Shown here: positions 13,636-32,872 of the stretch, in pieces | Layout of the letters: every line of letters starts with the position of its first letter | How positions within the stretch are numbered: the first letter of the stretch is position 1 | Assembly: GCA_947476045.1 (NCBI GenBank) | Contig: CANJNZ010000005.1 | Location: 1 to 64,000, forward strand | Direction: 5' to 3' | DNA from: Chthoniobacteraceae bacterium | GTDB lineage: Bacteria; Verrucomicrobiota; Verrucomicrobiia; Chthoniobacterales; Chthoniobacteraceae | DNA length: 64,000 bases | The notes under the pieces: model-generated | Database searches by the model: none | What the model saw: only the letters and a program-made list of their open reading frames with translations | What the model was told of the DNA's origin: nothing | Made by a program: the position numbers and the translations under genes

Positions 13636-14595
13636 TCATTCCGGGCGCACGCCCGGCTCTGTCAGATCCATGAACGCCTGGTTCAGATGCTTCACGTCCT
13701 CGGTGAAGCTGACGATTTGCGCACCGCTCGAAAGCGCGGCGGAGAGCAGTGCGTTCGGAGTGATCTGCTCTTTTTCAAACGCGACGCTGTAGCGCGGCTC
13801 GCCGGGTGTGATCTGCTGCACGGTCTTCACTCCGGGGATGGCGCTGAGCGCGTCCACAAACGGCGGGTGCTCGGCGGTGAGCGTGAATGCGTAGGCGTCG
13901 TCTGCGCCGTTGTTGGAGATGAGGCCGCGCATGGAGCCGGTGTATTTCACCGAGCCGCGATCGAGGATGGTCACGGAGTCGCACAGTTCGGCCAGCTCGC
14001 TGAGGATGTGCGAGCTGATGAAGATGGTTTTTCCGAGGCGTTTCAGCTCCTGCAAAATTTCCATCAGTTCGATGCGGGCGCGCGGGTCGAGGCCGCTGGC
14101 TGGTTCGTCGAGCAGGAGCAGGTCGGGGTCATGCACGAGCACGCGGGCGAGTGAGACGCGCTGCTGCATCCCGCGCGACAGTCCCTGGATGAAATCGTTT
14201 TTGCGTCCCGCCATGTCGGTGAGAGCGAGCACGTCGCCGATGATTTTGTCGCGCTGACCCTGCGAGAGTCCGTAGGCCGCGCCGAAAAAATCGAGATACT
14301 CGAACACGGTCATCTGCCGATACATCGAGAAATGATCGGGCATATAGCCGATTTTCCGGCGCACCTCCGTGCGGTCGCGCACGATGTCGCGGCCAAAGAC
14401 GGCGACCATGCCCGCCTGTGGTTTTAGCAGTGTCGCGAGCACTTTGAGCGTGGTCGTTTTGCCCGCGCCATTCGGGCCTACGAAACCGTGGATGCTCCGA
14501 GGGTTCACGGTGAATGACACGTCAGCGACGGCGACGTGGGTTTTGTAAGCGTGGCGGAGGCCGCGGATGTCTATGACTGGTTCCATATGGGTCAC
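13636..14595 (-). CDS. ABC transporter ATP-binding protein (CcmA/NatA type)
   Basis: This 319-aa ATPase of an ABC-2 exporter has Walker A GPNGAGKTTT, signature LSRGMQQR, Walker B LLLLDEPASGLDP and H-loop FISSHI. The last 90 residues form a C-terminal extension common in NatA/CcmA proteins. The GTG at 14595 overlaps the upstream stop as GTGA; ATG 14586 (MEPVIDI) is an alternative start. It likely powers the two permeases downstream and works with the membrane protein upstream (14592-16379). A close paralog lies at 20133-21077. Confidence 0.93.
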   Translation of the reverse strand: MTHMEPVIDIRGLRHAYKTHVAVADVSFTVNPRSIHGFVGPNGAGKTTTLKVLATLLKPQAGMVAVFGRDIVRDRTEVRRKIGYMPDHFSMYRQMTVFEYLDFFGAAYGLSQGQRDKIIGDVLALTDMAGRKNDFIQGLSRGMQQRVSLARVLVHDPDLLLLDEPASGLDPRARIELMEILQELKRLGKTIFISSHILSELAELCDSVTILDRGSVKYTGSMRGLISNNGADDAYAFTLTAEHPPFVDALSAIPGVKTVQQITPGEPRYSVAFEKEQITPNALLSAALSSGAQIVSFTEDVKHLNQAFMDLTEPGVRPE

Positions 14596-16379
14596 GGTTT
14601 TGTGAGGTCTTGCACGTAAAGGACGAAGCTTTCGCCGGATTGAAATTTGTCGCTCTTCATGTCGAAGCCCGCAGGTGCGTTGGCGTAGATGAAGAGTCGC
14701 ACACGCTCCGGCGGAACCGGCGTGGTGATGGTGCCCTTGCGAAAATAAAACGGCTCGTTGTTGGCGAACGCGATGAAGAGCTTGTCCAGACTGCGCAGCC
14801 GTTCGATTGCGGCTTTTTTGTCACCGCTCTCTCCGTAGTAGGGGCCGTGGTCGTAGTAATTGTTGTTTTCGCCGAAAAATGCCTGTGCGTTCTGTTCCGA
14901 TCCCGGGTTGAGTTCCAAGCCGCCAGCCACTGGAATCAAATAGTAATATTTCGAACCAAACTGAACCCTCGCCTGAATCACTTTGGACGCGATGACAGAA
15001 TTCAGCTTCAGCTTGATTGTTCCCTTCGCCGTATTCGGTTCCATTTTCCACTCCTGAATCTCCACTCCGAGATCATCCGCGCTAAGCACGCCGCGATGGA
15101 GAAATGGGCGCGATGAAAAGAGCGGCATGTCTGCCTCGAAGTGCGACTCTTTGCCAAGTGTCACTGCGCCACGCACCGTCTCGCCTTCGCTCACAGCAGC
15201 GTAAAGCTGACTGCCTCCTACGTGTTCGAAACGATAGTTGTCGCCCGTCGTGGCGAACGCATGAATCCACTCCGAAACATCGTAACGACCACCGCCGAGC
15301 GAGTGGGCGATGGCGAGCGAGTGGTAGATTTGTTTTTCACCATAGCCACGCCGACCCACTACCGTAAAAATCCATGCGAACAACACCACAGTGGCTACAA
15401 AGCCAGCGAGCAGCAGGCGGTAGTCGCGTTTGCGAAGGACGTAAAACGCGGGGCCGATGAGCAGCACATACGCGATGGTGAGCAGGTAAATGAGCCACCA
15501 TGCGATGTGCGGCTTGGTCGCGCTGGCCAGTTTTCGGAAAAGCATCGCGTCGAGATCGCTGATGTTGCCGTTGTCATTGTTCTTGGTCGTCGCAGGCGCT
15601 GAAAATCCGGCCTTTTCGAGCCAGTTGAGGGTGATTTCCGAGCGGGAGACTTTTTGTTTCACCACGAGCCCGGCACCGATGGTTGTGCGGTCTGAGGTGA
15701 CATTGAGCGGCGCGAGTTCCTCGGTAAATTGGGGCATTTCACCATTCAGGCCGGGCAGCAGATGCACGATGCCGCCGCGCTTCACCCAATCAAGAAACGC
15801 CTGCCTGCGCGGTGGGTCCCAGCGCGGCGAATGGTCGAGCACGACTGCGTGCAGTGCATCTGTCGCTGAGACAGTCGGCGGGAAAAGTGTCTCGGGAAAA
15901 ACGGGCATTCGCACATTGCGAATCGCGGGCGATTCGGGATCGGCGAGCATCACCGTCGCGGGCACAGCGCTACTGGGTCTCTCAAAAGGAATGACACCGC
16001 CTTTCTCTTCCGTCCACGAGAGCCGCCACTCGGGGGTATAGGAGCCGGTGTGAAAATAAAACTGCACCCACTGCGACGTGCCCGGAGCGAGGAAGAGATG
16101 CCTGACATACGGAGCCTGCGAGCTGCCCACGCCGAGCGCTTCTTCGAGCGTGAGGTCGCCGTCAAAGGCGTGCCCGCCGATGTTGCGCACTTCAAACGAA
16201 AGAATATTGAAAGATTCCTGACGCACATGGCCGTCGAAACCCCAGAATGGTTTGCCGATTTCGAGCGCACCCGAAGCGCGCATCACGAGAAGAAAGAGGA
16301 GGAGCAGAAAACGAGGAACCATGCGACGAGCGCGGAAGCTGGCAGAGAGCCCCGCAAATGTGGAGCGGGAAAGCATCAT
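14592..16379 (-). CDS. Membrane-anchored protein with GATase-like extracytoplasmic domain (ABC module B auxiliary)
   Basis: A 595-aa protein of unknown function from ATG 16379, whose ATGA overlaps the upstream stop. A signal segment (MVPRFLLLLFLLVMRASGA) is followed by a beta-rich domain. Then comes a Rossmann-like, glutamine-amidotransferase-type stretch with HAVVLDHSPRW, RRQAFLDWVKRGGIVHLLPG. Two central helices (WWLIYLLTIAYVLLIGPAFY and VATVVLFAWIFTVVG) precede a soluble C-terminal half. No catalytic Cys-His-Glu triad is evident. The layout recalls GldG-type auxiliaries of ABC-2 exporters, but that is inference. The gene at 18169-20136 has the same architecture. Confidence 0.7.
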   Translation of the reverse strand: MMLSRSTFAGLSASFRARRMVPRFLLLLFLLVMRASGALEIGKPFWGFDGHVRQESFNILSFEVRNIGGHAFDGDLTLEEALGVGSSQAPYVRHLFLAPGTSQWVQFYFHTGSYTPEWRLSWTEEKGGVIPFERPSSAVPATVMLADPESPAIRNVRMPVFPETLFPPTVSATDALHAVVLDHSPRWDPPRRQAFLDWVKRGGIVHLLPGLNGEMPQFTEELAPLNVTSDRTTIGAGLVVKQKVSRSEITLNWLEKAGFSAPATTKNNDNGNISDLDAMLFRKLASATKPHIAWWLIYLLTIAYVLLIGPAFYVLRKRDYRLLLAGFVATVVLFAWIFTVVGRRGYGEKQIYHSLAIAHSLGGGRYDVSEWIHAFATTGDNYRFEHVGGSQLYAAVSEGETVRGAVTLGKESHFEADMPLFSSRPFLHRGVLSADDLGVEIQEWKMEPNTAKGTIKLKLNSVIASKVIQARVQFGSKYYYLIPVAGGLELNPGSEQNAQAFFGENNNYYDHGPYYGESGDKKAAIERLRSLDKLFIAFANNEPFYFRKGTITTPVPPERVRLFIYANAPAGFDMKSDKFQSGESFVLYVQDLTKP

Positions 16380-18172
16380 TTCCTCAGCCATAGTTCCGCT
16401 TTTCGCAGGCAGAGTGCACGAACACCGAGGGTGAGTAGTGTGTATATGGCAAAATTATACAGCACCGGTGACAGTGGTCTTCCGATGCTGATGACGGTGC
16501 GCCCGCTTTTCAAAACCTCCACAAAGAACTGCGCGAGATTGTTGTGTTCGTTGGCATCGAGGATGCCGAGCGGGCTGAGCAGCGAGAGCCACAGCCCTGT
16601 GGGCTGATCGCGCCAGCTCGGCATGGTAAAGTGGAGCGTCGCGAGCGGTGCGATGAACCACAGGGCAAAGATGCAGAGCGTGGCGATGATCGCCTTTGCC
16701 TGCGCGCGCAGCCGCAGCGCGAATAAAAGCGAGACCCAGATAATCAGCGGTGGATACACCAGCAGCACAAGCCCCGCGCACAGCCAGTATTGACCGAGCG
16801 AGCGCCACATCATGTTTGAGCGGAGGTATTGGTATTCCGACCACCCTTGCAGCGCAAAGACGATGCCGAGAAGCAGCGCAAAGAGAACCCAGTATCGCCA
16901 GAGTGCGCGCACTTTTTCGCGCAGGATTTCCACCGCACCGAGCGGCGTGGTGAGCAGGATGTCGAGCGTCTGGTTCGAGCGTTCGCTAAGCATCGCGCCC
17001 ACGCTGCGCACCACAAGCACGAGCACCGCCGCGCTGCCGATCACCACGGCGAAATGATGCAGCCGCTGCGGCCCCTCCGTGCGCGGATAAATGCCCAGCA
17101 GAAAAAATGACATCGCCAGCGTGAGCACGCCGAGCACCACGACGAGATAAGCGAACCTCCCGCGCCGCCCGAGCACTCCGCGCCCGCTTTCGCGCCATGC
17201 GACGGGATCGTCCTTCGGCAGATCCACGTGCGCGGGCCGGAAGGAGCGGAACCATTTTACCGTCGAGTGCGCGATTTTTTTTACGCGGCGCGTCCTCGCA
17301 GGCGCGAACGCCCGCCGCATCAGCACGAGCCGCGCAAGCAGCCAGCAAACGCCCGCGCTGCCGATGAGCGGCGAGCAGTGTTCCCACGTCGTGGAAAAAA
17401 GACGCGGCCACAGCGCGGTGGAGTCGCTGGCGAGGACGGACGCCGCGCCTTCCTGTTCCGAGAGAATCCGCGAGAAAGCCTCCGGCGGCCAGTGTGCCCA
17501 GATCCAGCTTGGGATTTCAAAGCCATGCACATCCGCGCCCCACAGCACGTAGCGCACGCCGAGCGAGTAGGCGACTGCCGGTGTGAGGAACACCACCGCG
17601 CCCACGAGATACGAGCAGAGCATCGCGCCGACCGTCGTGCGGCACCACGCCGAGCACAGCAGCGCAAACGCCCCCGCCTGCAACCACGCAGAGAGCACCA
17701 CGCACGATCCCGCCGCGAGGAGTTGCGGCGACACTCCGCCATAGGCCATCGTGATCGCGCCGAGCGGCAGCGCGAGCAGCAGCAGCGTCGCCATCGGCAA
17801 AAGCCCGGCGAGCGTTTTCTCGACGAGCATTTTCGTTGGCGACATCCCGGTGAGCAGCAGCAGCGAGAGCGAGTCGCGCTCCTTTTCATAAGTGATCACA
17901 CCCGCCATCAGCGCGGGCTGAAAAATGAAAACGCCCGAGCATTGCAGCACGACGAGATCGGAAAACAAATCGCGCCCCACGCCCAGCACAGACAATCCGC
18001 TCGGATCGCCCGCCGCTATGCCTATCACCCGGTGCAGCGCGTAGAGAAACATCGCATAGAGCACCACGCCGTAGGCCACGCGCCCCGCGTAGGTGCGGCG
18101 GCGCGCGGCGCGCTCTGTGAGTTCGCGCGCGAGTAGCGGATAGGAAAATAGCGAGCGCAGCAGCGAAGTCAT
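16376..18172 (-). CDS. ABC-2-type transporter permease (module A)
   Basis: A 598-aa polytopic permease from ATG 18172 (MTSLLRSLFSYPLLARELTE), overlapping the upstream stop as ATGA. The frame further upstream is a shadow. The cytosolic motif ITYEKERDSLSLLLLTGMSP follows the second hydrophobic block, as in ABC-2 exporters, and a second copy, ERSNQTLDILLTTPL, appears in the C-terminal half. The two halves look like an internal duplication of a six-helix unit, so one chain may form the whole pore. It pairs with the ATPase at 20133-21077 and the auxiliary at 18169-20136. Confidence 0.86.
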   Translation of the reverse strand: MTSLLRSLFSYPLLARELTERAARRRTYAGRVAYGVVLYAMFLYALHRVIGIAAGDPSGLSVLGVGRDLFSDLVVLQCSGVFIFQPALMAGVITYEKERDSLSLLLLTGMSPTKMLVEKTLAGLLPMATLLLLALPLGAITMAYGGVSPQLLAAGSCVVLSAWLQAGAFALLCSAWCRTTVGAMLCSYLVGAVVFLTPAVAYSLGVRYVLWGADVHGFEIPSWIWAHWPPEAFSRILSEQEGAASVLASDSTALWPRLFSTTWEHCSPLIGSAGVCWLLARLVLMRRAFAPARTRRVKKIAHSTVKWFRSFRPAHVDLPKDDPVAWRESGRGVLGRRGRFAYLVVVLGVLTLAMSFFLLGIYPRTEGPQRLHHFAVVIGSAAVLVLVVRSVGAMLSERSNQTLDILLTTPLGAVEILREKVRALWRYWVLFALLLGIVFALQGWSEYQYLRSNMMWRSLGQYWLCAGLVLLVYPPLIIWVSLLFALRLRAQAKAIIATLCIFALWFIAPLATLHFTMPSWRDQPTGLWLSLLSPLGILDANEHNNLAQFFVEVLKSGRTVISIGRPLSPVLYNFAIYTLLTLGVRALCLRKAELWLRK

Positions 18173-20136
18173 GGTTCGGGTGGCGCGGCGAAGCGCCGGT
18201 AGATCGTCGTGACATTCCCCTCTTTCCGCCACGCGAGGCTGAATGGTTCGTTGCGGGTATTGTCGTTCACAATACTTCTCTGCAGATCACCCGTCGCGCC
18301 TGGGGCGCGGCCAAGGCGGGCTTTGAGTTGGACATGCGCGTTCATCTCATCGGTGTCTTCTGCATCGTCGAAATCCATGACGCGAAGCGCTTGGGGAAGC
18401 ACGCTGCCGCCCTTGGCCGAAAACCAATATTGAAGGCCACCTTGGGAAGCTACGGGTTCGTCATTCACGAATACTCCTTTGTTTTCACCCAGTCGGACTT
18501 TGAGGTTGCTCGCTTCGAGAGAATCCCACTGAGCGCCTGAGTCGTCCTTTGCTCCGACGGGAAAAGTGGTCACGCGCATTAGCGCGGGTGTCCACTGTCG
18601 CAGCGAACGCTGAATACGCCCGCGCGATGCGGACTCCCACTCGAACACGGCATCCCCGGAGTCCTTGGATGAGGAGATTCTGCCTGCAGGATACTGAACA
18701 AAGCCGCGCTGAGGCTGGATGTAGTCTTCGATATTTGTGCGAGGCACGGACACAGCGAGACCGTCCTCCACGCGCACTTCCCACTGGCGGTCGCGTGCCG
18801 GGAGCAGAAATTCATAGCGCAGTTCGCGCAGGACGCGCCCGTCGCGTGAAACATCCACAAAGCGTAGAGTGCCGCGCCGGTCATCGCTGCCGATGCTACG
18901 CTCGGCGGCGCGGCCAATCCACCACGCGCACAGCGCGCAGCAAGCGGGAAAAAGCAGCCACGTCCAGCGCCGACGCCGCAGCCAGCCGAGCAGAAAAAAG
19001 TCGCCCGGCCCTACGCCGAGCAGTAGCACGACAAGCGCGGTGCCCACAATGGCGAGCGGCACCGTTTTCGGTGCATCAGGCCTCAGCGAATCCATTCCGG
19101 CGGTGGTTGTCCACAGCGAGTGCAGTGCGAGTTCGTTATTAAAATATCGCCTTTGGATTTGCTGCTGTGCCCAGTTGTCGCTCCACACGCCTTCCGCCGC
19201 GACTTCGCGCACTTGTTCCGGCGGCAGTTTCCAAAGTGCCGCCACCGCAGTTCGCCACGGTTTTTCGGAAAATTCCTTTTCGACCGCCGTGTGCGTCACG
19301 ATTACCGCGACGCCCAGCCCCGGACTCAGCACCAGCGGCTCGCGGCCCGGTGCTGTGATGCGTCCTCCATCTCCGGGCGTGTATCGTTTCTTTGTGCCGT
19401 GCGAGTCACAGAGCGCATTGAGGAAATCAGTGTGCCGCTCCTGCGCGGGCACATCCGCGCACACCCACGCGCTGCCTCCGCCCTCGATCCAACGACGCAG
19501 GCCGGTGAGTTGCTTTTCGCCGAGCGCGGCAAACGCAGGGCCGTCGAGATACACCGCGTCGTAGGCGCACCAGCCAGTCGGATGTGCGGGCAGGTTCTCC
19601 ACGCGCACGCCGCTGGTGAGTATGGTGAAACTCAAATAGGACTTCGCGTCGAGTTTCGGGCGCAGCGTGTCGAGGTGCAGGCTGCGTTCGCGGGCGGTAT
19701 CGAGTTCGGTGATGCGCCTGTCGGTGCGCGGGACACAGAAGACGAGTTCGTTCGAGGCGAATCCGTAGATGCCCAGCTTTTGATCGCCGAAGTCCCACGT
19801 GCCCGACTTCCCCACAAAGCGCACGCGCACCGCGAGTCCGTCGCCGTTTTCCGTCGCGGGCGGTGGCGGCAGCAGCACCGGCACAGCGCGTTTGCCCGGC
19901 TGCATGACGATCTCCGCCGTGCGCACCATGCCCGCCGGATGCGCGCCGCGTTGCATGGAAAATTCCAGCCGTCCTTCGAGCAGTCCCGGCCCGGCCCAAA
20001 TGAGATTCGCATCGAATGTGACGGGCGCGTCCTTGCGAAGATGGATCGCGTTTGTATCGAGCGAAAATGTGAGCGCGCCGGCGAGGCAGGAATGTCGGAT
20101 GACGAATGTCAGAATGATGAAGAGCAGCGTCCTCAT
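18169..20136 (-). CDS. Secreted/membrane protein with GATase-like domain (ABC module A auxiliary)
   Basis: A 655-aa protein of unknown function. A signal peptide (MRTLLFIILTFVIRHSCLAGA) leads into a beta-rich region. A GATase/Rossmann-like segment follows with YDAVYLDGPAFAALGE and LTGLRRWIEGGGSAWVC, and two central helices with LAIVGTALVVLLLGVGPGDF and LLFPACCALCAWW. The C-terminal half is soluble. The architecture matches 14592-16379 without obvious close identity. Its start overlaps the upstream ABC ATPase stop, and its stop overlaps the permease start, so stoichiometry is probably tightly linked. A copy of the GGATGACGAATG repeat word lies inside the signal-peptide codons. Confidence 0.7.
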   Translation of the reverse strand: MRTLLFIILTFVIRHSCLAGALTFSLDTNAIHLRKDAPVTFDANLIWAGPGLLEGRLEFSMQRGAHPAGMVRTAEIVMQPGKRAVPVLLPPPPATENGDGLAVRVRFVGKSGTWDFGDQKLGIYGFASNELVFCVPRTDRRITELDTARERSLHLDTLRPKLDAKSYLSFTILTSGVRVENLPAHPTGWCAYDAVYLDGPAFAALGEKQLTGLRRWIEGGGSAWVCADVPAQERHTDFLNALCDSHGTKKRYTPGDGGRITAPGREPLVLSPGLGVAVIVTHTAVEKEFSEKPWRTAVAALWKLPPEQVREVAAEGVWSDNWAQQQIQRRYFNNELALHSLWTTTAGMDSLRPDAPKTVPLAIVGTALVVLLLGVGPGDFFLLGWLRRRRWTWLLFPACCALCAWWIGRAAERSIGSDDRRGTLRFVDVSRDGRVLRELRYEFLLPARDRQWEVRVEDGLAVSVPRTNIEDYIQPQRGFVQYPAGRISSSKDSGDAVFEWESASRGRIQRSLRQWTPALMRVTTFPVGAKDDSGAQWDSLEASNLKVRLGENKGVFVNDEPVASQGGLQYWFSAKGGSVLPQALRVMDFDDAEDTDEMNAHVQLKARLGRAPGATGDLQRSIVNDNTRNEPFSLAWRKEGNVTTIYRRFAAPPEP

Positions 20137-21077
20137 GCCGTTTTTCCTTCGGTGAGCTTCATGAACGCAGTCTCCATGTCCACGGCATCCGGCTGGAACA
20201 TCCGCACACGCGCGCCCGTCGCGCGGATGGCGTCGAGCAAATCCTCTGGCGTGAGATCACCCTCGCGCAGACGCACGACGAGACGATCCGGCAATTCCTC
20301 GACCGATGCGACGCCTGTGATGGCGCGGATTTTTTCAACCCACGGCGCGGAGGAACCGGCGAGGCCGATGTGGATGGCGCGATCCAGCGCGAGCGTGCGG
20401 TAGATTTCCTGGAGCGGCCCGGCGGCGACCACGCGGCCCTGCTCGAGGATGCCGATGTGGGAGCAAAAATGTGCAAGCTCGTGGAGGATATGCGACGAGA
20501 TGAGGATGGTTTTTCCGAGGTTTTGGAGTTCCTTCAGCAGCTCGCGCATTTCGATGCGGGCGCGCGGGTCGAGGCCGTTGGCGGGTTCGTCGAGTAGGAG
20601 AAATTCGGGATCGTGGAGGAGGAGGCGTGCGATGCCGAGGCGCTGTTTCATGCCGCGAGAGAGGCCGTCCACGGGTGCCTGCGCCTTCGCGGTGAGGTCG
20701 GTGAGCGAGAGCACGTCGGAGATAATGCCGCGCCGCTTCATCGAGGGGATGTGATAAGCGGCGGCGAAAAAATGGAGATATTCCTCGGCGCTGAGATCGT
20801 CATACACGCCGAAGAAATCCGGCAGATAGCCGATCTTGCGGCGGACTTCGCCGGGGTTCGTCACGACATCGTGCCCGCACACGCGCACTCTGCCCGCGCT
20901 CGGTCGCAGCAGGGTGGCGAGGACTTTGATGGTGGAGGTTTTTCCAGCGCCGTTCGGCCCGATGAAGCCGTAAATCGCACCGCGCGGGATGTTGAACGAG
21001 ATGTCGTGGACCGCTTCGGTTTTTCCGTAGCGAACGATGAGGTTTTCGATGGAGACGAGGGGCTGCGTGTCCTGCAT
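20133..21077 (-). CDS. ABC transporter ATP-binding protein (module A)
   Basis: A 314-aa ATPase from ATG 21077 (MQDTQPLVSIENL). The frame upstream of that is a proline/serine-rich shadow. Walker A is GPNGAGKTST, the signature LSRGMKQR, Walker B LLLDEPANGLDP, with ISSHI as the H-loop. It shares nearly all motif wording with 13636-14595, so the two ABC modules probably arose by duplication. The BatA-type gene ends 49 bases upstream, and the downstream stop overlap couples it to its auxiliary protein. Confidence 0.93.
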   Translation of the reverse strand: MQDTQPLVSIENLIVRYGKTEAVHDISFNIPRGAIYGFIGPNGAGKTSTIKVLATLLRPSAGRVRVCGHDVVTNPGEVRRKIGYLPDFFGVYDDLSAEEYLHFFAAAYHIPSMKRRGIISDVLSLTDLTAKAQAPVDGLSRGMKQRLGIARLLLHDPEFLLLDEPANGLDPRARIEMRELLKELQNLGKTILISSHILHELAHFCSHIGILEQGRVVAAGPLQEIYRTLALDRAIHIGLAGSSAPWVEKIRAITGVASVEELPDRLVVRLREGDLTPEDLLDAIRATGARVRMFQPDAVDMETAFMKLTEGKTA

Positions 21078-21126
21078 GGGGAACGAATAGGAAGAGACTG
21101 CGTCCTGCGCCAGCGCGGAATGATGA

Positions 21127-22983
21127 CTACACTGTTCGCCGCTGGAACCACCACCACTCGATGAGCAGCACGGCGAAGCCGAGCGCGGCGAGTGTCCACC
21201 ACAGCGAGCGATCGGCTTTCGGGGCGACTCTGGCGGTGGCGACGGAAATGCGGTCGCCAAACTCGACTTCGTTCACTGCAGTAAGGCCGGTCTCGCTCGT
21301 GGAGAGCAGGCTCACGCCGATACGCGTTTCATTTCCACCGCCGGCGGAAAGCACATATTCGCCGACGCGCGGCGCGGGGATGCCGGTTACGAAGCCGCGC
21401 TCGTCGGCCTTCTCGGTGCGTGTGAATTTTTCCGGACCGCTGACGTTCACGCTCGTGCCGCTGGTGAATTGATGAGCGGGCAGCACGCCCGTGGCGACTG
21501 ACACGGATTCGCTCAGCCCGGCGAGTTTCTGTGCGTGCGCGACGAGGTTGCTGGCGAGGATCGGAAACGCGACGCGGAAGGGGAGTGTGCTGCGATCCGG
21601 ATGGAAAATGAGGTGCAAACGCAGTGCTGTGTCATCGCCGCGCACGAGGGCGAGCGGGCCGTGCGGGCCGAGGATGAGCGGTTCGTAGCCGAGGTTTGCG
21701 AAGGCGGTTTCGTCCTTGCCCGCAGCGGTGATGGGATCGTCCATGAAGAGCACTTCATCGAAGCTCACATGCTGGAGCAGCGGGGATTCGCGCCGCCAAT
21801 CAATCGCGGCGACCGACTTCTTTTCCACGGAGACGAGTGTTTTCAAATCGTCCGGCACGATGCCGACGGTGCAGGTGAGGCGTGCGGGTAGTGCGTCGGC
21901 TTTGTCCGCGATGGCGAGGTCGTAGCTACTGGGCGAAGGCGTGTCTTTCGCCGGGAAAATGCGGAGGCCGTCGAGCGCGGCGAGCGCGTGGCGGAATGCG
22001 CCGAGTGATTCCGGCACAAAGACATCCAGCGAACGCACGGCGGGGAGCGCGAGCCAGGCGGTGTTGTCTGCGGAGAGCGAATCGAAACCGCCGGGTCGCA
22101 GCGTGGCGCGGATGAGTGCGCTCTGCGCGCCGCTCACGCGAAACGCGAGTTGTGGAGCGCCGCCGGGCGTGAGCGCGACTTGCTCGGTGGCGATCACTTT
22201 CCCCTCGGCGCTCAGTTCGATGCTTGCGGTGTTTGCGGGCGCGGGATCGGTGACTGCGAGCTGGACGAACAATTCCCAATCGCCCGCCGCCGTGCGCCGC
22301 GCGTTGCAAGCGGTGATGCCCGCATTCGGCCCGGCTGCCGGGAGCTTTTGCAGATCGAGCGTGAAGGGCAGCTCGAACGTCGTCTTCGCAGGCAGGTTGC
22401 CATCCGTGAGCACGAGCACTCGCTCGAATGGCGTGGTGCGTGCGAGCGCCTGTGCGAGGCGAAGTGCCTCTTCGAGATCGCCGGGGACATCCTCCACATC
22501 GAGCGAGGCGACCGCATCGCGCAGTTCGGTTTTGTTGTTCGTAAAGCCGACGAGCTTCCGCGCGCTTTTGCTGAACGCGTTGATGCACATCTCCTGATCC
22601 GGCAGCAGTCCATCAATGCGTTCGCGCAGGCGCTGGCTGGCTTCTTCGAGCCGCGACTTACCGCCGTCCTTGTCGAGCGCAGCCATGCTCGCGGAGACAT
22701 CCACGAGCACCGGCAGACGTCCCGCGCGCTTCGCCTCGCGTCGCAGAAAAGGCTGCATCGCCGCGAGCGCTAGCAGCGTGAGTAACAGGATTTGGAGAAG
22801 GAGAAGCAGGTTTCGTTTGAAGCGCTGAAACGGAGAGTTCACCCGCTGGTCGCTCATCACCTGCCGCCACAGCACAAGCGAAGAAATGATCTGCCGTGGC
22901 CGTTTCAATTTCAGAAAATAGAAAATGATCAGCGGAACAAGCAGAGCAAAAAGCCACGCGCTTGAGAGCGAGGTGAAGTTCAT
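21127..22983 (-). CDS. BatA-type membrane protein with von Willebrand factor A domain
   Basis: A 618-aa inner-membrane protein. Helices lie at about residues 8-24 and 58-77, then a vWA domain whose metal-ion site begins DVSAS (95-99) with a later LVLTDGN. A long beta-rich region follows, ending in a C-terminal helix near ALGFAVLLIEWWWF. This is the layout of BatA/YfbK-like partners of MoxR ATPases. Cleaved or chaperoned substrates are unknown. The ATG overlaps the stop of the PIN-domain gene as ATGA, so a toxin gene is read into it. DUF58 and MoxR, the usual partners, lie upstream on the same strand. Confidence 0.87.
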   Translation of the reverse strand: MNFTSLSSAWLFALLVPLIIFYFLKLKRPRQIISSLVLWRQVMSDQRVNSPFQRFKRNLLLLLQILLLTLLALAAMQPFLRREAKRAGRLPVLVDVSASMAALDKDGGKSRLEEASQRLRERIDGLLPDQEMCINAFSKSARKLVGFTNNKTELRDAVASLDVEDVPGDLEEALRLAQALARTTPFERVLVLTDGNLPAKTTFELPFTLDLQKLPAAGPNAGITACNARRTAAGDWELFVQLAVTDPAPANTASIELSAEGKVIATEQVALTPGGAPQLAFRVSGAQSALIRATLRPGGFDSLSADNTAWLALPAVRSLDVFVPESLGAFRHALAALDGLRIFPAKDTPSPSSYDLAIADKADALPARLTCTVGIVPDDLKTLVSVEKKSVAAIDWRRESPLLQHVSFDEVLFMDDPITAAGKDETAFANLGYEPLILGPHGPLALVRGDDTALRLHLIFHPDRSTLPFRVAFPILASNLVAHAQKLAGLSESVSVATGVLPAHQFTSGTSVNVSGPEKFTRTEKADERGFVTGIPAPRVGEYVLSAGGGNETRIGVSLLSTSETGLTAVNEVEFGDRISVATARVAPKADRSLWWTLAALGFAVLLIEWWWFQRRTV

Positions 22984-24696: not shown

Positions 24697-25584
24697 TCAT
24701 ACGACCCACCCTTTTTTTCGTAGAGTCTCGAAGAAGATGCGCTCGAATGGTTCGGCGGCGCTGAGGCTGAGGAAGCGTCCGTTGCGCTGCTGGCAGAGGG
24801 AGGTGAGCAGGGCTTCGTGGGCTGTGCGGTATTCGTGGTAGAGGGCGAGCAGGTCGCCGATGTTGCTGATGTCGAGTGTGGCTTCGGTCTCGCTGTCCAC
24901 GAGGCGGAAGTCGCCGGCGACGTCGGGTGCGATTTCTGCGGGCGCGAGGATTTGCAGCGCGAAAGTTTCAAGCCCGGCGCTGTGGAGGTGGTTGAAGGCG
25001 CGGCGCAGATCGCCCGTGGTGAGAAAATCCGAAAGCACGATGGCGACGCCGCGTCCGCGGTGCTGGCGAAGTGCGGACTCGATCGCGGCGTCAACCGGCA
25101 CGTCTCCGCCTGCGGTGAGGCTTTCGATGAATGTGAACATTTTCGCGAGACTCGCGCGCCCGGTGCAGGGCCGCAGGCACGCGGTGGTGCCGCTTCCGAG
25201 CGCATGGACGCTCACTTTCTCTGCACCGCGCAGACCGAGGACGCCGAATGCGGCGGCGAGTTTTTGCGCGAGTGGGAGTTTGTCCTCGAAGTTCATCGAG
25301 GTGGAGCAGTCCACGAACAGGACGATGTGCTGCTCCTCCTCGTGGTGAAATTGTTTAAGGTAGGGCCGGTTGATGCGCGCGAAGATGTTCCAGTCGAGAA
25401 AACGCACGTCGTCGCCCGGCGAGTAGTCGCGAAAATCGCAGAACTCCGTGCTCGCGCCGCCCTTCGCCGCGAGATGCTCACCGCGAGCGCGGTTGGTGAA
25501 GCGCCGCGTGGCGTTCAGCCGCAATCGTGCAAGGCGATCCAAGTCGCGGTTGGTGAGGAGCGACGTGATTTGTGCGGCACTCAT
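24697..25584 (-). CDS. DUF58 domain protein (vWA-like, MoxR partner)
   Basis: A 295-aa cytosolic protein. The DUF58 hallmark GEHLAAKGGASTEFCDFRDY (residues about 35-54) and the following SPGDDVRFLDWNIFARINR are intact. A vWA-like DCSTSM lies near residue 94. DUF58 proteins pair with MoxR AAA+ ATPases and BatA-type proteins, here 26667-27662 and 21127-22983. It is separated from both by the inserted pairs at 22980-23605 and 25615-26612. The start at 25584 is set by ATG and the family N-terminus. Confidence 0.93.
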   Translation of the reverse strand: MSAAQITSLLTNRDLDRLARLRLNATRRFTNRARGEHLAAKGGASTEFCDFRDYSPGDDVRFLDWNIFARINRPYLKQFHHEEEQHIVLFVDCSTSMNFEDKLPLAQKLAAAFGVLGLRGAEKVSVHALGSGTTACLRPCTGRASLAKMFTFIESLTAGGDVPVDAAIESALRQHRGRGVAIVLSDFLTTGDLRRAFNHLHSAGLETFALQILAPAEIAPDVAGDFRLVDSETEATLDISNIGDLLALYHEYRTAHEALLTSLCQQRNGRFLSLSAAEPFERIFFETLRKKGWVV

Positions 25585-26409: not shown

Positions 26410-26612
26410 AGTTCGGCGGCGAGTTGGTAGCCGGGATGCCCGCCATTTTCGCGTAGCCCCCGAATGATGAAAGGAAGATGCCGCTCCTCGATTTTCATCG
26501 CCGGATCGGACGACCAGAAGCACTGCGAAAAACGTTCGCGAAAGATCCGTCGCGCCAGTTCCAAACGACGCGCGATTTCGGGGGCAACTGCAATCTCACT
26601 GTCAGTGCTCAT
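26400..26612 (-). CDS. Small acidic/helical protein coupled to the nucleotidyltransferase gene (possible antitoxin)
   Basis: A 70-aa protein beginning MSTDSEIAVAPEIARRLELA, with no domain I recognise. It is mostly helical, with charged ARRIFRERFSQCFW. It overlaps the downstream gene by 10 bases and follows MoxR after a short gap of 54 bases. Its size, position and overlap suggest an antitoxin or a translation leader for the nucleotidyltransferase. A wholly different role is possible. Confidence 0.55.
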   Translation of the reverse strand: MSTDSEIAVAPEIARRLELARRIFRERFSQCFWSSDPAMKIEERHLPFIIRGLRENGGHPGYQLAAELCL

Positions 26613-26666: not shown

Positions 26667-27662
26667 TCAGACTGCTTCCTCCGGCACAGCTTTGGCGACT
26701 TCGGCGACTAGGGCGGGGACACTGAGGTTTTCGGCGAGACCGTCGTAGTTGAGGAGGACGCGGTGGCCGAGGACTTCGGGGGCGAAGTGGCGCACGTCCT
26801 CGAAGGCGACGTGGGCGCGGCCTTCGGCGAGGGCGCGCACGCGGGCGGCGCGGATGAGCGCCTGCACTGCGCGCGGGGACGCTCCCAATTTGACGAATTT
26901 TTTCACCGTGTCTCCGCTCTCGACGGCGTCGGGGTGCGTGGCGAGGACGAGGCGCACGGCGTAGTCGCGGAGGGGATCGGCGACGACCACTTTCTCCAAG
27001 ACGCTGCGCAGTTCCATGATGCGGTCGCCGCTCATGATGCGCGGCACGTCTGCGCCGCCGCCGAGCGTGGTGCGGCGGACGACTTCGTTCAACTCGGCGC
27101 GATTGAGGAAGGGCACGTTGAGCTTGAACATGAAGCGGTCGAGCTGCGCTTCGGGCAGCGGGTAGGTGCCTTCCTGCTCCAGCGGATTTTGCGTCGCGAG
27201 GACGAAGAACGGCGGGCGCAGCACGTGGGTTTCTCCGCCCACGGTCACGCTGCCTTCCTGCATCGTTTCCAGTAAAGCGGCCTGCGTCTTTGGCGTGGCG
27301 CGGTTGATTTCATCGGCGAGCAGGAGCTGGGTGAAAATCGGGCCGCGCCGGAATTCAAACTGGTAACGTCCGTCCGCGCCTGCGCTCATCACGGTCGTGC
27401 CGATGATGTCGGCGGGCATGAGGTCGGGCGTGAATTGGATGCGGCGGAAATCGAGATCGAGCGCGCGGGAGAGCGCCTTCACGAGTTCCGTTTTGCCAAG
27501 GCCGGGCACGCCTTCGAGCAGCACGTTGCCGCCCGCGATGACGGCGACGAGCACGCCATCCACCACGCGCTGCTGGCCGACGATGACGCGCCCGACGCTG
27601 TCGCGCAGTCGCTGGAAGTCGTCCCGGAATTTTTGTGCTTCGGCTTGGAGTGTGTCGCTCAT
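26667..27662 (-). CDS. MoxR-family AAA+ ATPase
   Basis: A 331-aa AAA+ protein with Walker [10 protein letters not shown], Walker [10 protein letters not shown], sensor 1 [19 protein letters not shown], and the MoxR-typical DRFMFKLN. Such ATPases act as chaperones for vWA-domain partners; here those are DUF58, the BatA-type protein and the 1002-aa protein upstream. The start at 27662 ([10 protein letters not shown]) gives the family length. A 100-base gap separates it from the DMT gene, which could hold an internal promoter. Confidence 0.95.
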
Positions 27663-27762
27663 GGTGGTGGTGTTTGAGTTGTTGAAAATGGGCTGGCTCA
27701 GATGGTGATGGTTGTCCCTGAGAACGTGGTGATCGTCGAGGATTTCGGTGTGTAGTGCATGG

Positions 27763-28197
27763 TCACGCTTTCCAATTTAAGATGATGATACCCGCGAGAA
27801 CGAGTCCGGCACCGAGTGCGGTCTGCTTGGTGAATTCCTCGCGCAGAATGAGCGCGGAGAGCAGTAGCGTGATGAGGATGCTGCCTTTGTCCACGAGCGA
27901 GACGAACGTGACTGTGCCGGTCTTCATCGCGCGGTAGTAAAAAATCCATGACAGCGAAGTGGTCACGCCGCTCAGTGCGAGCAGGGCGAGATCGCGCGGT
28001 TGGGCGGAACGCAGCGCGGCTAGCGGTTTCGCGGTTGTCCACACGAGCATATTGAGCATCACAATGGTGAAAACGACGCAGGTGCGCAGGGCGAGGCTCA
28101 CGTCGGGGCCGAGATTTTTCATGCCGGACTTGGCGAGGACGCTGGTGAGTCCGGCGAAAATGGCGGCGAGGATGGCTTGGATTTTCCATGTTTCCAT
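27763..28197 (-). CDS. Small EamA/DMT-type permease (four to five helices)
   Basis: A 144-aa membrane protein beginning METWKIQAILAAIFAGLTS. Half-size EamA/DMT proteins with about five helices (here with LVDKGSILITLLLSALILRE at the end) typically form dimers. The last signature GAGLVLAGIIILNWKA matches the EamA repeat. It lies 3 bases from the 1002-aa gene and is read in the same transcript. Its presence here may be incidental to the vWA cluster. Confidence 0.85.
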   Translation of the reverse strand: METWKIQAILAAIFAGLTSVLAKSGMKNLGPDVSLALRTCVVFTIVMLNMLVWTTAKPLAALRSAQPRDLALLALSGVTTSLSWIFYYRAMKTGTVTFVSLVDKGSILITLLLSALILREEFTKQTALGAGLVLAGIIILNWKA

Positions 28198-28200
28198 ACG

Positions 28201-31200
28201 CTAGGAATTGTCGTCCTCCTGCCGCTTGCGCTTGCGTGCGAGCAGGCGTTCGGTGGTGGATTGCGGGGTTTCTTTGGAAGGTGGTTCTGGCGGTTTTTGC
28301 GGAGCGGGCACAGCGGCTTTCGGCGTGGCTGTGGTTTGCGCCGGGAGGATGACGGGCTTTGGTCGCTCGGCGGGTGTGGTGGTCGTTGCGACCTGCTTTT
28401 TGCGTTCGAGCAATGCGCCCATCGTGGCGGTGGACGCCCGTTTTTTGCTTAAACCAAACCAGCCCCGGATGACGAGCCAGTCGAGTTGCACGCGGCGCAA
28501 TGCGACATCGAGCGGGATGAGGCAGGCGAGCACGATGAGGAACCAGTCGAAGACGGGCTTGCTGCTTTCGCGTGTGCTGCGCGCTGGGTGGAAGAGGTCG
28601 AGATCCGCCGGGCTGAGGATGCGCCCGCCGGTGCGCTCGGCGATTTGTTTCAGCACAATCGGGTCGCTCTTGAAGCGCAGATACTCGGGCGAATACGGCA
28701 CGGCGAATCCGCCAAAGGCCTGCTCGTTTCGTGGCTTGCCGCCGTCGCCCGATGTGCTCACTCCGGCGGCGGCGATTTGGTAGCGGCCCTTGCCCCAGAG
28801 CGGAAACTGGCCTTGATAGCGGCGCGGCGCGATTTGCTTCAGCGGGACTTCCACCGTCTCGCCGCGCGGGCCGTTCACGCGGGCTTTCAATTCCATGAAG
28901 CTCTCGGTTTTTGCAAAATCCTCGATGGTGATGATGCCCTGCGCGCCCACGGCAAACGTCGAGAGCGTGAGGTCGCTGCGCTGCTCGACGCGCGAGACTT
29001 CGGTGGTGAGTTGTTTCACGAAGGCGCGGAATTTTTCCCAGCCCATCCAGTCGCGCGCCCAGTTTGGCGCGAGGTCGCTCGTCCACGCGGCAGTCGTGCC
29101 GAGGCCGTAGCGCCAAATGGCGAGCACGGGATCGGGCGAATCACCGGCGGCGGTTTCGGCGGCATCCGGCGGAGCTTTCAGCACGACGCTCGCGCGCGGC
29201 TTTGCAGTTGTTAGCACAAAGCCGTGAAGCATCGGCAGCGCGTCGAGGCCTTTCAAAATCGGCGATGGAAACTCGACCTGCGCGGCGAAGTCTTTGTTTT
29301 GCAGCATCGAGCGTTTCAGCGTCTTGGCCTCCTTGATGAAAATGCTCGGGAGCTGCGACGGATCCTGCGGGTAGTAAAAACGTCCGCCGGTTTCGTTCGC
29401 GATGCCTTCCATGAGCGCGACCGTCTGGCCGCCGTGTGGATTGATCGCCACGGTGGAGACGGTGACTTTCTGCGCCTTGTATTGCGCGAGCAGCGCCGGT
29501 GTCGGCGGCTGCGGATCGCCGTCGCTGATGATGATGCAGTGCTTCATCGCAGCGTCGCTGCCTTGGAGCCCTTTCAGCGCCATCGTCATGATGTTGTCGA
29601 AGGCCGGCATGTCCTCGGGCTCTGCGGCATTGATGAGCGGGAGCAGCTTGGTCTCGAATTCCTTCGCCGGCGTCATCGGAAAAACCCACTCGTCGCCCTT
29701 CGCGTATTTGAAATGCAGCAGCCCCACTTCGTCCTCGCCACCGAGCACGCGGATTGCCTCCTTCGCGATCCGTTTCGCCCACGTATTTCCCTCGGCAAAT
29801 TCGCAAGTGTGCATCACGAGCGCTAGCGCGCCCTTCGGCAGCACCTTCTTTTGCGTCACGTCCATGGTCACCGGCAAAGCGTCCTCCACCACGCTGCGAT
29901 GATAGCCGCCGGGGCCGAAGCTGTGCTCGCTGCCGAGCATGAGGAAGCCCGTGCCTTGATTGTAGATCGCCTCGTGCAGCGCCTGGAGTTGCACCGCGTC
30001 AAACGCATCGGCGGGGGCGTTTGGAAAAACGATCAAATCATACGGCAGCAGCGAAAGCGGGTCGCGCGGGAACTCATACGCCATGCGCACCTGCACGATG
30101 CGCTCGCTCTCCTTCATCGCCTTCACAAAACTTTCCCACTCGCGCGCGTCGGCGCGTGCATCCGTGACGACGAGCACCTTGCCCTCACCCTTCAAATACA
30201 GGTCGCCCATCGCAACATTGTTCTCCGCCCATGAATCCTCGCCCTTCGGCAATTCGATGCTGGCGACATATTCGTAGTAGCCCGGCCCGCGCTGCGGAAG
30301 CGGGAGCGAGAAGCGATTTTTTCCGGCTGCAAACTCGACCTCCTTCTCGAAAACCTGCTGCCCGTTTTCCGCGAGACGCAGCTTTCCTTTTCCAGCACCG
30401 AGCGAGGAAAGCAGCACGGTCGCCTCGTAGGTTTCGCCTTTTTTTACCACGCGCGGGAGGTCTAGGCGCTCCAGCCAGACTTCCTTGGAAAAGTCGAATC
30501 CCACCGGCAGCACATCCACTGCGATGCCGCGCGATTTCAGTTCGTCGAGTGTGGCGAGCACGTTGCCGTCCGTCTCGTTGCCGTCGCTGATGAGCACCAC
30601 GCGGCCCTGATTTCCCTCCGGCAACATCGCCGCAGCCAGTCCGAGGCCCTTCGCCATGTCGGAACCGTCGCGACCAATGCGGGAGTTGATCGTTTCAAAA
30701 GGGAACGATGTGCGAGGCGGCAGTTCCACCGACGCATCGCGACCGAAAACCACCAGCCCCGCTTCGTCTTTCTGCGGCTTTTGCCCGACTGATTTCAAAA
30801 TCCATTCCAGCGACTTGTCCGAGATTTTCTCGCCCATCGAGTCCGACACATCGAGCGCATACACGAGCGAGAGAGCGTCCGACTTTCTCACCGCCCTCGG
30901 CTCGGCGAGCAGCGCGGCAAAGATTCCCATCAGCAGAAGTCGCGACAGCAGCGCTGCATGCGCCCGCCATCCACGCAGTCCGCTCGATCCCGCGAAGTGC
31001 ATCCACCACACCCACGGCGCGGCGAGCATCAGCCAGAACGCGGGCCGCCATGTGAAGCGAATGATGCCGCGCATTTCGCAGACGACCACCGCTGCCGCAT
31101 ACACCGCCGCGAAAATCAGCAACGGCGAAAGCGCGAGCAGCGTCACGCGCTGGCGTGCCGCCGGAACAAGCGAGCGACCCCAGCGTTGGAGAAATGTGAA

Positions 31201-31209
31201 GGGCTTCAC
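28201..31209 (-). CDS. Large membrane protein with vWA domain(s) and GATase-like domain
   Basis: A 1002-aa protein and the first gene of the cluster. Helices lie near residues 24-45, 55-70 and 88-103. A vWA domain starts ALDVSDSMG (MIDAS at 120-124) with VVLISDGNETD. A GATase-like segment reads LIVFPNAP and LMLGSEHSFGPGGY (about 390-436). A second vWA-like fold has IISDGDPQPP (about 560) but lacks a full DxSxS. A C-terminal helix is near VFDWFLIVLACL. The tail is basic and Pro-rich. This combination is known in Verrucomicrobia/Planctomycetes as uncharacterised proteins. Role: unknown; envelope assembly is inferred. Confidence 0.83.
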   Translation of the reverse strand: MKPFTFLQRWGRSLVPAARQRVTLLALSPLLIFAAVYAAAVVVCEMRGIIRFTWRPAFWLMLAAPWVWWMHFAGSSGLRGWRAHAALLSRLLLMGIFAALLAEPRAVRKSDALSLVYALDVSDSMGEKISDKSLEWILKSVGQKPQKDEAGLVVFGRDASVELPPRTSFPFETINSRIGRDGSDMAKGLGLAAAMLPEGNQGRVVLISDGNETDGNVLATLDELKSRGIAVDVLPVGFDFSKEVWLERLDLPRVVKKGETYEATVLLSSLGAGKGKLRLAENGQQVFEKEVEFAAGKNRFSLPLPQRGPGYYEYVASIELPKGEDSWAENNVAMGDLYLKGEGKVLVVTDARADAREWESFVKAMKESERIVQVRMAYEFPRDPLSLLPYDLIVFPNAPADAFDAVQLQALHEAIYNQGTGFLMLGSEHSFGPGGYHRSVVEDALPVTMDVTQKKVLPKGALALVMHTCEFAEGNTWAKRIAKEAIRVLGGEDEVGLLHFKYAKGDEWVFPMTPAKEFETKLLPLINAAEPEDMPAFDNIMTMALKGLQGSDAAMKHCIIISDGDPQPPTPALLAQYKAQKVTVSTVAINPHGGQTVALMEGIANETGGRFYYPQDPSQLPSIFIKEAKTLKRSMLQNKDFAAQVEFPSPILKGLDALPMLHGFVLTTAKPRASVVLKAPPDAAETAAGDSPDPVLAIWRYGLGTTAAWTSDLAPNWARDWMGWEKFRAFVKQLTTEVSRVEQRSDLTLSTFAVGAQGIITIEDFAKTESFMELKARVNGPRGETVEVPLKQIAPRRYQGQFPLWGKGRYQIAAAGVSTSGDGGKPRNEQAFGGFAVPYSPEYLRFKSDPIVLKQIAERTGGRILSPADLDLFHPARSTRESSKPVFDWFLIVLACLIPLDVALRRVQLDWLVIRGWFGLSKKRASTATMGALLERKKQVATTTTPAERPKPVILPAQTTATPKAAVPAPQKPPEPPSKETPQSTTERLLARKRKRQEDDNS

Positions 31210-31330
31210 GGGCGCGGACTGTGTGGAAAAAAGCCCCGTCGAAGCGAGCGATTATTCGAGGGAGAGGGATGGGAGCGTGGTCGGCATGGACATGATGGAT
31301 ACGGCCACCACTGCCAAACACGGCTCCGCT

Positions 31331-31699
31331 TTATCCGATGTGTGCGCTGTATGCGGTGGCATCCATGAGCGCGTCGCGGTCGGCGGGGTTGGAGAGTTCG
31401 AGTTTGAACATCCAGCCTGCGCCGTAGGGATCGGTGTTCACGAGCGCGGGGTTGGCGGTGAGGTCGGCGTTTGCGGCGACGACTTTTCCGGCGGCGGGCG
31501 CATAGATGTCGCTCGCGGCTTTCACGCTCTCGACGACGCAGATGACGTCGCCGGCGTTCACCGTTTTGCCGATGGCGGGCAGGTCCACGAAAACCACGTC
31601 GGTCAGCTCGTGCTGGGCGTGATCGGTGATGCCGGCGGTGCCGTCAGCGCGGAGCCATTCGTGGGATTTTGCGTAGCGGAGATCGTCTGGAACGTTCAT
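31331..31699 (-). CDS. gcvH: Glycine cleavage system H protein
   Basis: A 122-aa lipoyl carrier that shuttles the aminomethyl group between P and T proteins. The lipoylated lysine lies in [14 protein letters not shown], and the family core [16 protein letters not shown] opens the protein. It follows gcvT by 29 bases, so the two are probably cotranscribed. gcvP is not within the window, nor is a glycine riboswitch visible upstream of gcvT (only 34 bases separate it from the rhomboid gene). Confidence 0.96.
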
Positions 31700-31728
31700 G
31701 TGATGAATTGTGAAAGTGTGGTTGTGTG

Positions 31729-32838
31729 CTATCCGGCGCTGCCGCCGCGGTGAAGCGGTTTCTTTTCCACGACGGCGGGAAAGCGGCGTCCGCGGATGTC
31801 AATTTCGATGGCCGTGCCGGGCGTGACGGATGCAGGCAGATACGCGAGGCCGATGCCGCAGCCGAGCGTCGGCGAAAGTCCACCGCTGCACGTTTCGCCG
31901 ATTTGCGCTCCTTCGTTCCAGACGCCGTAGTGGCTGCGTGGCGGCGGAGTCGCGCCGACCATTTTGAAAGCGACGAGCTTGCGCGCGGGGCCGCTGGCTT
32001 TTTGTTCGGCGAGGACGGCGCGACCTGTGAAGTCAGGTTTGTTCAAATCCACAAAAAAACCGAGTCCCGCCTCGATGGGCGTGTGGTCGGGCGAGAGATC
32101 GTTTCCATTCAGCGGGTAGCACATTTCCATGCGCAACGTGTCGCGTGCACCGAGTCCGCAAGGCTGGATGCCAAACGCTGCGCCGGTCGTGAGCACGTCG
32201 TTGAAAAGTTTCACCGCTGATGCCGACGGGCAGAAAATCTCGAACCCATCCTCGCCCGTGTAGCCGGTGCGCGCGATGTAGAGCGGCACGCCGCCGAGTT
32301 CCAGTCGGACGATGGCATTGCGTGTTGGCGCGACGCATTTCCCCGCGACAAACGCATCGAACCACGCCGCTGCGCGCGGCCCCTGCACGGCGAGTCCAGC
32401 GTGGGAGTCGCTCTGGTTTTCCAAAATCACGCCGTTGTCGAGATGCGCGCTGAGCCACGCGAAATCTTCGTCAATTTTTGCGGCGTTCACGACGAGCAGC
32501 CACTCGTGGTCGCAGATGCGGTAGATGATGAGGTCGTCAATCACGCCGCCGCGCTCGTTGAGCATCAGCGTGTATTGCCCGCCGCCGATGGCGAGTTTCT
32601 CGACGTTGTTGGTGAGCATCCGGTTCAGCCATGCGGCGGCACCGGTGCCGCGCGCGAAAAACTGGCCCATGTGCGAAATATCGAAGACGCCCAGCGCAGT
32701 GCGGACGGCATGATGTTCGGCGATGATGCCTGCGTATTGCACGGGCATGTCCCAACCGCCAAAGCCGATCATTTTACCACCGAGACGGACGTGTTCGGCG
32801 TGGAGCGGCGTGGTTTTTAAAGTAGCATCTGCGGGCAT
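31729..32838 (-). CDS. gcvT: Glycine cleavage system T protein (aminomethyltransferase)
   Basis: A 369-aa THF-dependent aminomethyltransferase from ATG 32838 ([20 protein letters not shown]). Family marks are [38 protein letters not shown] and LGARDTLR. It makes 5,10-methylene-THF from the H-bound intermediate, linking to folD in the window. The upstream frame to 32964 overlaps the end of the rhomboid gene and is rejected. The 34-base gap suggests one transcript with the rhomboid gene. Confidence 0.96.
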
Positions 32839-32872
32839 GAGGGCGCGGAGACTAAGAGCCGAGCCGCGAGTG

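Follow-up and report, generated by a model that had tools for sequence, protein, structure and literature searches.

Is a von Willebrand factor A (vWA) domain that lacks the DxSxS signature of a metal-ion-dependent adhesion site (MIDAS) a degenerate fold, or can another site stand in its place? The question is raised by a 1002-amino-acid (aa) protein, here named BIG, that is encoded in a 64,000-nucleotide stretch (the window) of contig CANJNZ010000005.1 from a Chthoniobacteraceae bacterium of the Verrucomicrobiota (assembly GCA_947476045.1; 4.37 Mb, 123 contigs). An earlier note on this DNA described a complete vWA domain, a glutamine amidotransferase (GATase)-like insert and a second, degenerate vWA fold that may be a scaffold, and had MoxR control partner binding at the first vWA domain. 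Our analysis points elsewhere for the second domain (vWA2), which lacks DxSxS but has invariant histidine and carboxylate residues in its stead. The reading that we prefer, at a probability of roughly 0.45, makes BIG the subunit on the envelope side of a Bat-type MoxR machine in Planctomycetota–Verrucomicrobiota–Chlamydiota (PVC) bacteria; of its two sites, one is a normal MIDAS and the other a rebuilt site that probably binds a metal.

A rebuilt site in the second vWA domain

Relatives of BIG were compared in a set of 227 loci, reduced to 211 non-redundant rows by removal of the window's own locus (L001), L097 and rows with identical cores; each locus is represented by its best frame only. 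Rows were typed by residue 467 as His-type (H) or Asp-type (D), so that H467 is invariant in His-type rows by definition; the residue is H in 131 rows, D in 79 and absent in one. In BIG, vWA2 has H467-T-C469-E470-F471 for DxSxS and P535 for the MIDAS Thr, keeps only the third-motif Asp, D563, and carries H467, E470, D533, D563, D565 and H592 where a MIDAS would be. E470 is found in 131 of 131 His-type rows, and D533, D563, D565 and H592 each in 130 of 130. The replacement is all-or-none: E470, D533, D565 and H592 occur jointly in all 130 testable His-type rows, and none of the four occurs in 76 of the 79 Asp-type rows, which have DxSxS (77/79), G at 533 (76/79), D563 throughout (79/79) and varied residues at both 565 and 592.

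The same division was present in a first alignment of 23 sequences, with H-T-C-E in 10 orthologues and D-R-S-G-S or a close form in 13 paralogues. Among 70 related loci from a named-genome collection, H-[TSA]-C-E is found in all 68 that reach residue 467 (L093 and L097 end earlier), a count open to a selection effect, as these loci were collected by two peptide patterns, DEAGLVVF and QKKV[LM]PKG, the latter of which adjoins the vWA2 site; 18 of the 60 deduplicated rows from this search hold DEAGLVVF only and one (L095) holds neither pattern. A search of Planctomycetota gave a match in 137 of 199 genomes, from which the 30 best loci were taken automatically and 60 further matches were picked by hand from those listed (34 His-type, 26 Asp-type). 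A draw of Verrucomicrobiota gave a match in 34 of 194 genomes, and only 1 of the 29 loci newly fetched from it was His-type.

By domain, conservation is highest in vWA2, both in 79 close rows (0.754, against 0.678 for vWA1) and in all 131 His-type rows (0.632, against 0.542). The earlier note was right that this region (about 455–636) lacks DxSxS, but its terms 'degenerate' and 'scaffold' do not fit, because the domain is the most conserved one and the replacement residues are invariant. The note had also named structure prediction as the check on whether the region folds as a vWA domain, and it does so in an AlphaFold2 model (55 sequences; mean predicted local distance difference test score 81.2; predicted template modelling score 0.57; low confidence in the tail only), in which strands and helices alternate at 460–633 and solved vWA domains are placed by VIA-align at 458–635 (4fx5, Z 22.1, 172 residues, root-mean-square deviation 2.0). 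Pfam agrees, narrowly for the window protein (PF00092, 24.1 bits against a cut-off of 23.8), with 29 of 32 members matching at E 0.01. A profile search of vWA2 against PDB sequences returned 25 matches at E ≤ 0.01, the best being 4rck at 1.3e-6 (alignments for the best three only). The vWA2 profile also matches the vWA domain of calcium-channel alpha-2/delta-1 (E ~1.5e-6), where a His is aligned with H592.

In the model, strand 460–466 ends at H467, strand 555–562 at D563 and strand 582–588 just before H592. The site residues thus come after one of the strand ends at 466, 562 and 588 or ahead of helix 537, the region in which a vWA fold would have its MIDAS. This rebuilt site, of two His and four carboxylates, is probably a metal site. 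Full-text searches, by which subscription journals are mostly not covered, found no paper on the BIG family or on a His-type vWA site, and the main text of PMC10632474 does not mention MoxR, VWA or DUF58.

Domain architecture, predicted topology and the tail

BIG starts with three membrane helices, which are followed by vWA1, a beta domain and a GATase1-like domain that vWA2 splits in two; another beta domain, a membrane helix and a basic tail complete it (Table 1). The first vWA domain is clear-cut (PF00092, 54.2 bits against 23.8, E = 2.6e-14, best stretch 115–243), and the DVSDS at residues 120–124 that the earlier note had picked out belongs to a full MIDAS set (D120, S122, S124, S183, which is Thr in relatives, and D209); among His-type rows reaching these positions, D209 is kept in 130 of 130, and residue 183 is T or S in 129 of 129. 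An NCBIfam search of BIG gave zero matches above the curated cut-off.

The GATase1-like domain scores 40.4 bits against a cut-off of 27 with PF07090 (E = 3.4e-10), and VIA-align superposes the GATase1-like structures 3soz (Z 26.1), 2gk3 (Z 25.9) and 3rht (Z 24.1), with 204–208 residues each, over model residues 342–741. With only this many residues aligned over that span, and the solved vWA domains placed at 458–635, vWA2 sits inside the GATase1-like fold; their fold is that of BIG 343–741 minus vWA2, from which BIG differs by the vWA domain within. The LGSEHSFGPGG of the earlier note is indeed present, but the GATase-like part, which the note took for an insert, spans 343–741 as an entire GATase1-like domain with vWA2 interrupting it. 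Columns 426–432, where the nucleophile elbow is expected in this fold, hold no Cys in any of the 210 typed rows. Activity as a glutaminase (a class I glutamine amidotransferase enzyme) is therefore unlikely and was set aside, and the domain may rather be a binding module. The Asp-type paralogues, such as the 28% identical second BIG-like copy in the window's genome (G000:C74:9094-11634), share the layout and have an intact vWA1 MIDAS; the nested architecture is therefore not new, and what is new is the rebuilt vWA2 site.

Hydropathy and positive flanks predict that residues from ~105 to 885 are outside the cytoplasm and the tail inside, and both vWA domains would thus face the periplasm; periplasmic exposure of the vWA domain has been shown by others for a BatA-like protein of Borrelia (PMC5700661, in excerpt). 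The basic, Pro-rich tail after the last membrane helix is predicted to be cytoplasmic, in line with the earlier note. It holds two mutually similar, LLxRK-like motifs, STATMGALLERKKQ and STTERLLARKRKR, both helical in the model. Every His-type row with a known end (90/90) has 88–142 residues after R906, and loose patterns find a motif-1-like stretch in 79 of these tails and a motif-2-like stretch in 89; the median tail of the 47 Asp-type rows with a known end is 7 aa.

This topology bears on how MoxR is contacted. Because the vWA domains are predicted to be outside and MoxR inside, the MoxR binding at DVSDS that the earlier note envisaged is doubtful, and contact with the tail is more likely. 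In NorQ/NorD, the MoxR/vWA pair that has been studied best, MIDAS mutants still co-purify with the MoxR partner and lose function on the target (PMC9976466, in excerpt). Taken with the predicted topology, this suggests that vWA1 and vWA2 would meet envelope-side ligands and that MoxR and DUF58 would act on the tail.

Occurrence and gene neighbourhood

The 1002-aa frame proposed by the earlier note exists and lies on the minus strand, which the note had not given, with a GTG start at 31209; 'giant' overstates its size. It is real beyond chance because it has Pfam matches, copies within the order (at least 57% identity in 10 of the 147 genomes of the order, the window's genome included) and the 70 related loci. 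Two frames that overlap this conserved one in another frame, 27698-29116 (minus, 472 aa) and 30656-31753 (plus, 365 aa), were rejected as genes. Relatives occur in Verrucomicrobiota, Lentisphaerota and Planctomycetota, the closest named ones being metagenome-assembled genomes (MAGs) labelled Spartobacteria (97%) and Chthoniobacter types. Three MAGs titled Prosthecobacter debontii (L033, L034, L035) hold copies 73–96% identical to the window's; copies like these otherwise come from Spartobacteria/Chthoniobacter bins, and the titles may be wrong.

On the minus strand the window reads GcvT, GcvH, BIG, an EamA-like gene, MoxR, an AbiEii-like gene, DUF58, PIN and BatA, followed by an ABC ATPase, a membrane protein, an ABC-2 permease, another membrane protein and a second ABC ATPase. 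The MoxR gene assumed by the earlier note is thus present downstream of BIG, and MoxR AAA_3, DUF58 and BatA stand together on one strand, the arrangement of a Bat-type operon. The window's MoxR also matches PF20030, of the MoxR-vWA-beta-propeller ternary conflict system, at 46.1 bits against 207.6 for AAA_3; no beta-propeller family was found among the scanned proteins, which cover only part of the window. The PIN and AbiEii-like genes each recur in one of the 70 related loci (L032), for which reason they look like passengers.

Across the 70 named-collection loci, many of them cut by contig ends, there are 50 with MoxR, 38 with BatA and 34 with DUF58; MoxR starts less than 3 kb downstream of BIG in 41 of the 48 loci with at least 3.5 kb of downstream sequence. 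Gene order differs between the two types: across 42 longer stretches, a MoxR gene comes after BIG in 15 of 20 His-type but 1 of 22 Asp-type cases (L246). The other Asp-type stretches comprise seven with the order MoxR-DUF58-(BatA)-BIG, one with MoxR further upstream (L244), eight with DUF58 and MoxR undetected, and five with neither. Within flanks of 1.5 kb only, MoxR was found in 24 of 37 His-type loci and 1 of 53 Asp-type loci, that single one having D-A-V-E for H-T-C-E.

Table 1 Features of BIG and of the neighbouring genes in the window.
Feature	Residues	Positions	Strand	Basis or remark
BIG gene, 1002 aa		28201..31209	minus	GTG start at 31209, conserved frame
Membrane helix 1 (predicted)	25-43	31081..31137	minus	hydropathy; model helix 24-46
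Membrane helix 2 (probable)	55-72	30994..31047	minus	model helix; below hydropathy cut-off
Membrane helix 3 (predicted)	83-101	30907..30963	minus	hydropathy and model
vWA1	110-243	30481..30882	minus	Pfam VWA 115-243; PDB 4jdu, 3ibs by sequence
DVSDS MIDAS of vWA1	120-124	30838..30852	minus	D120, S122, S124 in 128/128 His-type rows reaching there
Beta domain 1	244-340	30190..30480	minus	model strands 244-319
GATase1-like domain, first half	341-454	29848..30189	minus	VIA-align to 3soz/2gk3/3rht over 342-741
LGSEHSFGPGG	425-435	29905..29937	minus	alignment of 210 rows, no catalytic Cys at 426-432
vWA2, nested in GATase1-like domain	455-636	29302..29847	minus	model, VIA-align, Pfam
HTCE, at MIDAS DxSxS position	467-470	29800..29811	minus	alignments
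D533, loop aligned with MIDAS Thr loop, GDMP-type motif	533	29611..29613	minus	D in 130/130 His-type rows
SDGD; D563 the retained MIDAS Asp, D565 His-type-specific	562-565	29515..29526	minus	alignment
P591-H592	591-592	29434..29439	minus	H592 in 130/130 His-type rows
GATase1-like domain, second half	637-745	28975..29301	minus	PF07090 at 644-731 (profile positions 158-238/247); VIA-align
Beta domain 2	746-840	28690..28974	minus	model
Last membrane helix (predicted)	886-904	28498..28554	minus	hydropathy and model
Tail motif 1, STATMGALLERKKQ	926-939	28393..28434	minus	alignment; model helix 930-943
Tail motif 2, STTERLLARKRKR	984-996	28222..28260	minus	alignment; model helix 985-1001
GcvT, glycine cleavage system, upstream of BIG		31729-32964	minus	profile search
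GcvH, glycine cleavage system, upstream of BIG		31331-31699	minus	profile search
EamA-like transporter half, 144 aa, between BIG and MoxR		27763-28197	minus	profile search
MoxR AAA+ ATPase		26667..27662	minus	PF07726 207.6 bits; conserved downstream of BIG
AbiEii-like nucleotidyltransferase gene		25615-26523	minus	profile search, below Pfam cut-off
DUF58 protein, no membrane helix predicted		24697..25584	minus	Pfam, hydropathy
PIN-domain gene		22980-23390	minus	profile search
BatA-type membrane vWA protein		21127..22983	minus	PF07584, PF13519
ABC transporter ATPase		20133..21260	minus	Pfam; listed TTG start probably too far upstream
Membrane protein		18169..20136	minus	beside cluster in 16/70 related loci (neighbourhood count)
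ABC-2 type permease		16376..18232	minus	PF12679
Second ABC transporter ATPase		13636..14595	minus	profile search

History of the two types and competing explanations

Several observations weigh against the reading of BIG as a MoxR-machine subunit with a rebuilt metal site. Tails of at least 60 aa occur in 17 of the 47 Asp-type rows with a known end, with loose matches to motif 1 in 7 and to motif 2 in 11. MoxR is missing just downstream in 7 of the 48 loci counted above, five of them close verrucomicrobial relatives (L034–L038; the others are L065 and L073), and L246 shows that gene order is separable from site type. Two related rows, L165 and L178, have D-A-V-E for H-T-C-E, and the eroded tandem second copies in L059 and L060, left out of the rows, have lost both the His-type and the Asp-type vWA2 site. 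The switch of type is a further difficulty: a tree of 102 rows built without the vWA2 columns requires 6 type changes (5 with the two D-A-V-E rows taken as H), against 2–3 in a vWA2-only tree with the site columns removed, which is compatible with a single origin. Exchange of whole vWA2 domains, or reversal, may therefore account for part of the concerted switch, so that the joint change of the residues is no proof of residue-by-residue coupling; these numbers do not show that the His type arose once, residue by residue, and a test on independent pairs had only 5 pairs, which put the 0.05 level out of reach.

Some of these loci have further features. L165 and L178 sit within the His-type part of the tree, and L165 keeps the MoxR neighbourhood. 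The tandem copies (L059:12014-14803 and L060:12029-14806, both Schlesneria) keep the vWA1 DVSDS. Genome G459 has sister copies of opposite type, of which L201 (H) adjoins MoxR-DUF58-BatA and L206 (D) is without them.

The main rival, which we consider rather unlikely, takes the rebuilt site for a pocket without metal, in which a particular peptide or sugar is recognised by hydrogen bonds. Such a pocket would fit a remark in an eLife survey on vWA domains without the Asp (PMC7159879, in excerpt), and the data here are of conservation, not of metal; two His and four carboxylates that are jointly invariant are, we infer, more typical of a metal site. Less probable still is the scaffold reading of the earlier note, in which partners are bound by vWA1 alone. 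Scaffold vWA domains without a MIDAS exist, vWA2 lacks both DxSxS and the MIDAS Thr, and the tandem second copies of L059 and L060 look eroded; however, the conservation of vWA2 in orthologues argues against a scaffold, and a decaying site would vary, unlike the four residues kept without exception in 130 rows. That BIG is an ordinary Bat-type membrane vWA protein, its site change a lineage quirk with no new function, would accord with domain types and gene partners that are all of known kinds, but we regard it as improbable for a change that is all-or-none and kept over three phyla. Cys/His catalysis by H-T-C-E, of a thiol hydrolase or peptidase-like kind, was set aside as very improbable: 124 of 131 His-type rows have C469, but the other 7 have I, S, T or V there with the remaining site intact, and the Cys is therefore dispensable.

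A possible mechanism and relation to known systems

We infer a metal, ligands and a function for BIG along the following lines. vWA1 would bind an acidic group of a client via Mg2+, as is usual for a MIDAS, and the rebuilt vWA2 site would bind a metal with a preference for His and carboxylate ligands (for example Zn, Fe or Mn). Binding outside could be relayed by the last membrane helix into the tail in the cytoplasm, and the LLxRK-like motifs there would dock on MoxR or DUF58; ATP hydrolysis by MoxR might then remodel the membrane complex or its client, and the ABC-2 transporter genes may supply or move a substrate. A bolder version, which we offer only tentatively, is an extracytoplasmic metal centre of two His and four carboxylates, possibly dinuclear or catalytic, in three phyla, with a MoxR machine contacted through the two-motif tail.

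The closest known systems are the Bat operons (MoxR, DUF58, BatA/BatB), which likewise encode MoxR, DUF58 and a membrane vWA protein of BatA type on a single strand, and whose BatB structures 4jdu and 3ibs match vWA1 of BIG; the window's cluster adds BIG, with its two vWA domains (one nested) and cytoplasmic tail, and ABC-2 transporter genes. In Leptospira biflexa, deletion of Bat gave no oxidative-stress phenotype and the role of Bat is unsettled (PMC3557215, in excerpt). Rhizobium leguminosarum has a conserved operon, RL3499–RL3502 (cmdA–cmdD), whose MoxR belongs to the MoxR-proper subfamily; its mutants are defective in morphology and in the envelope (as cited in PMC3893208 and PMC5700661, both in excerpt), which suggests a role for BIG in envelope upkeep. 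NorQ/NorD and other MoxR/vWA pairs share the MoxR ATPase and a vWA partner, and in NorQ/NorD the MIDAS is needed for the target, not for MoxR binding (PMC9976466); NorD is soluble with a single C-terminal vWA domain, whereas BIG is a membrane protein with two, one of them rebuilt. The Asp-type paralogues differ in having DxSxS in vWA2, in placing BIG last in 7 of the 22 longer stretches and in mostly having no long tail.

MoxR/vWA pairs serve metal enzymes and membrane complexes as chaperone-like machines; their Bat branch is widespread, with no agreed function. If the preferred reading is true, a vWA domain with invariant His and carboxylate residues instead of the MIDAS would have a site of a new kind, and this would correct the annotation reflex by which a vWA domain without DxSxS is taken as degenerate. 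With six residues and a metal, the vWA2 site would offer a handle on the Bat problem, and the predicted topology makes a checkable claim: that a cytoplasmic MoxR acts on an envelope-side vWA protein through its conserved tail.

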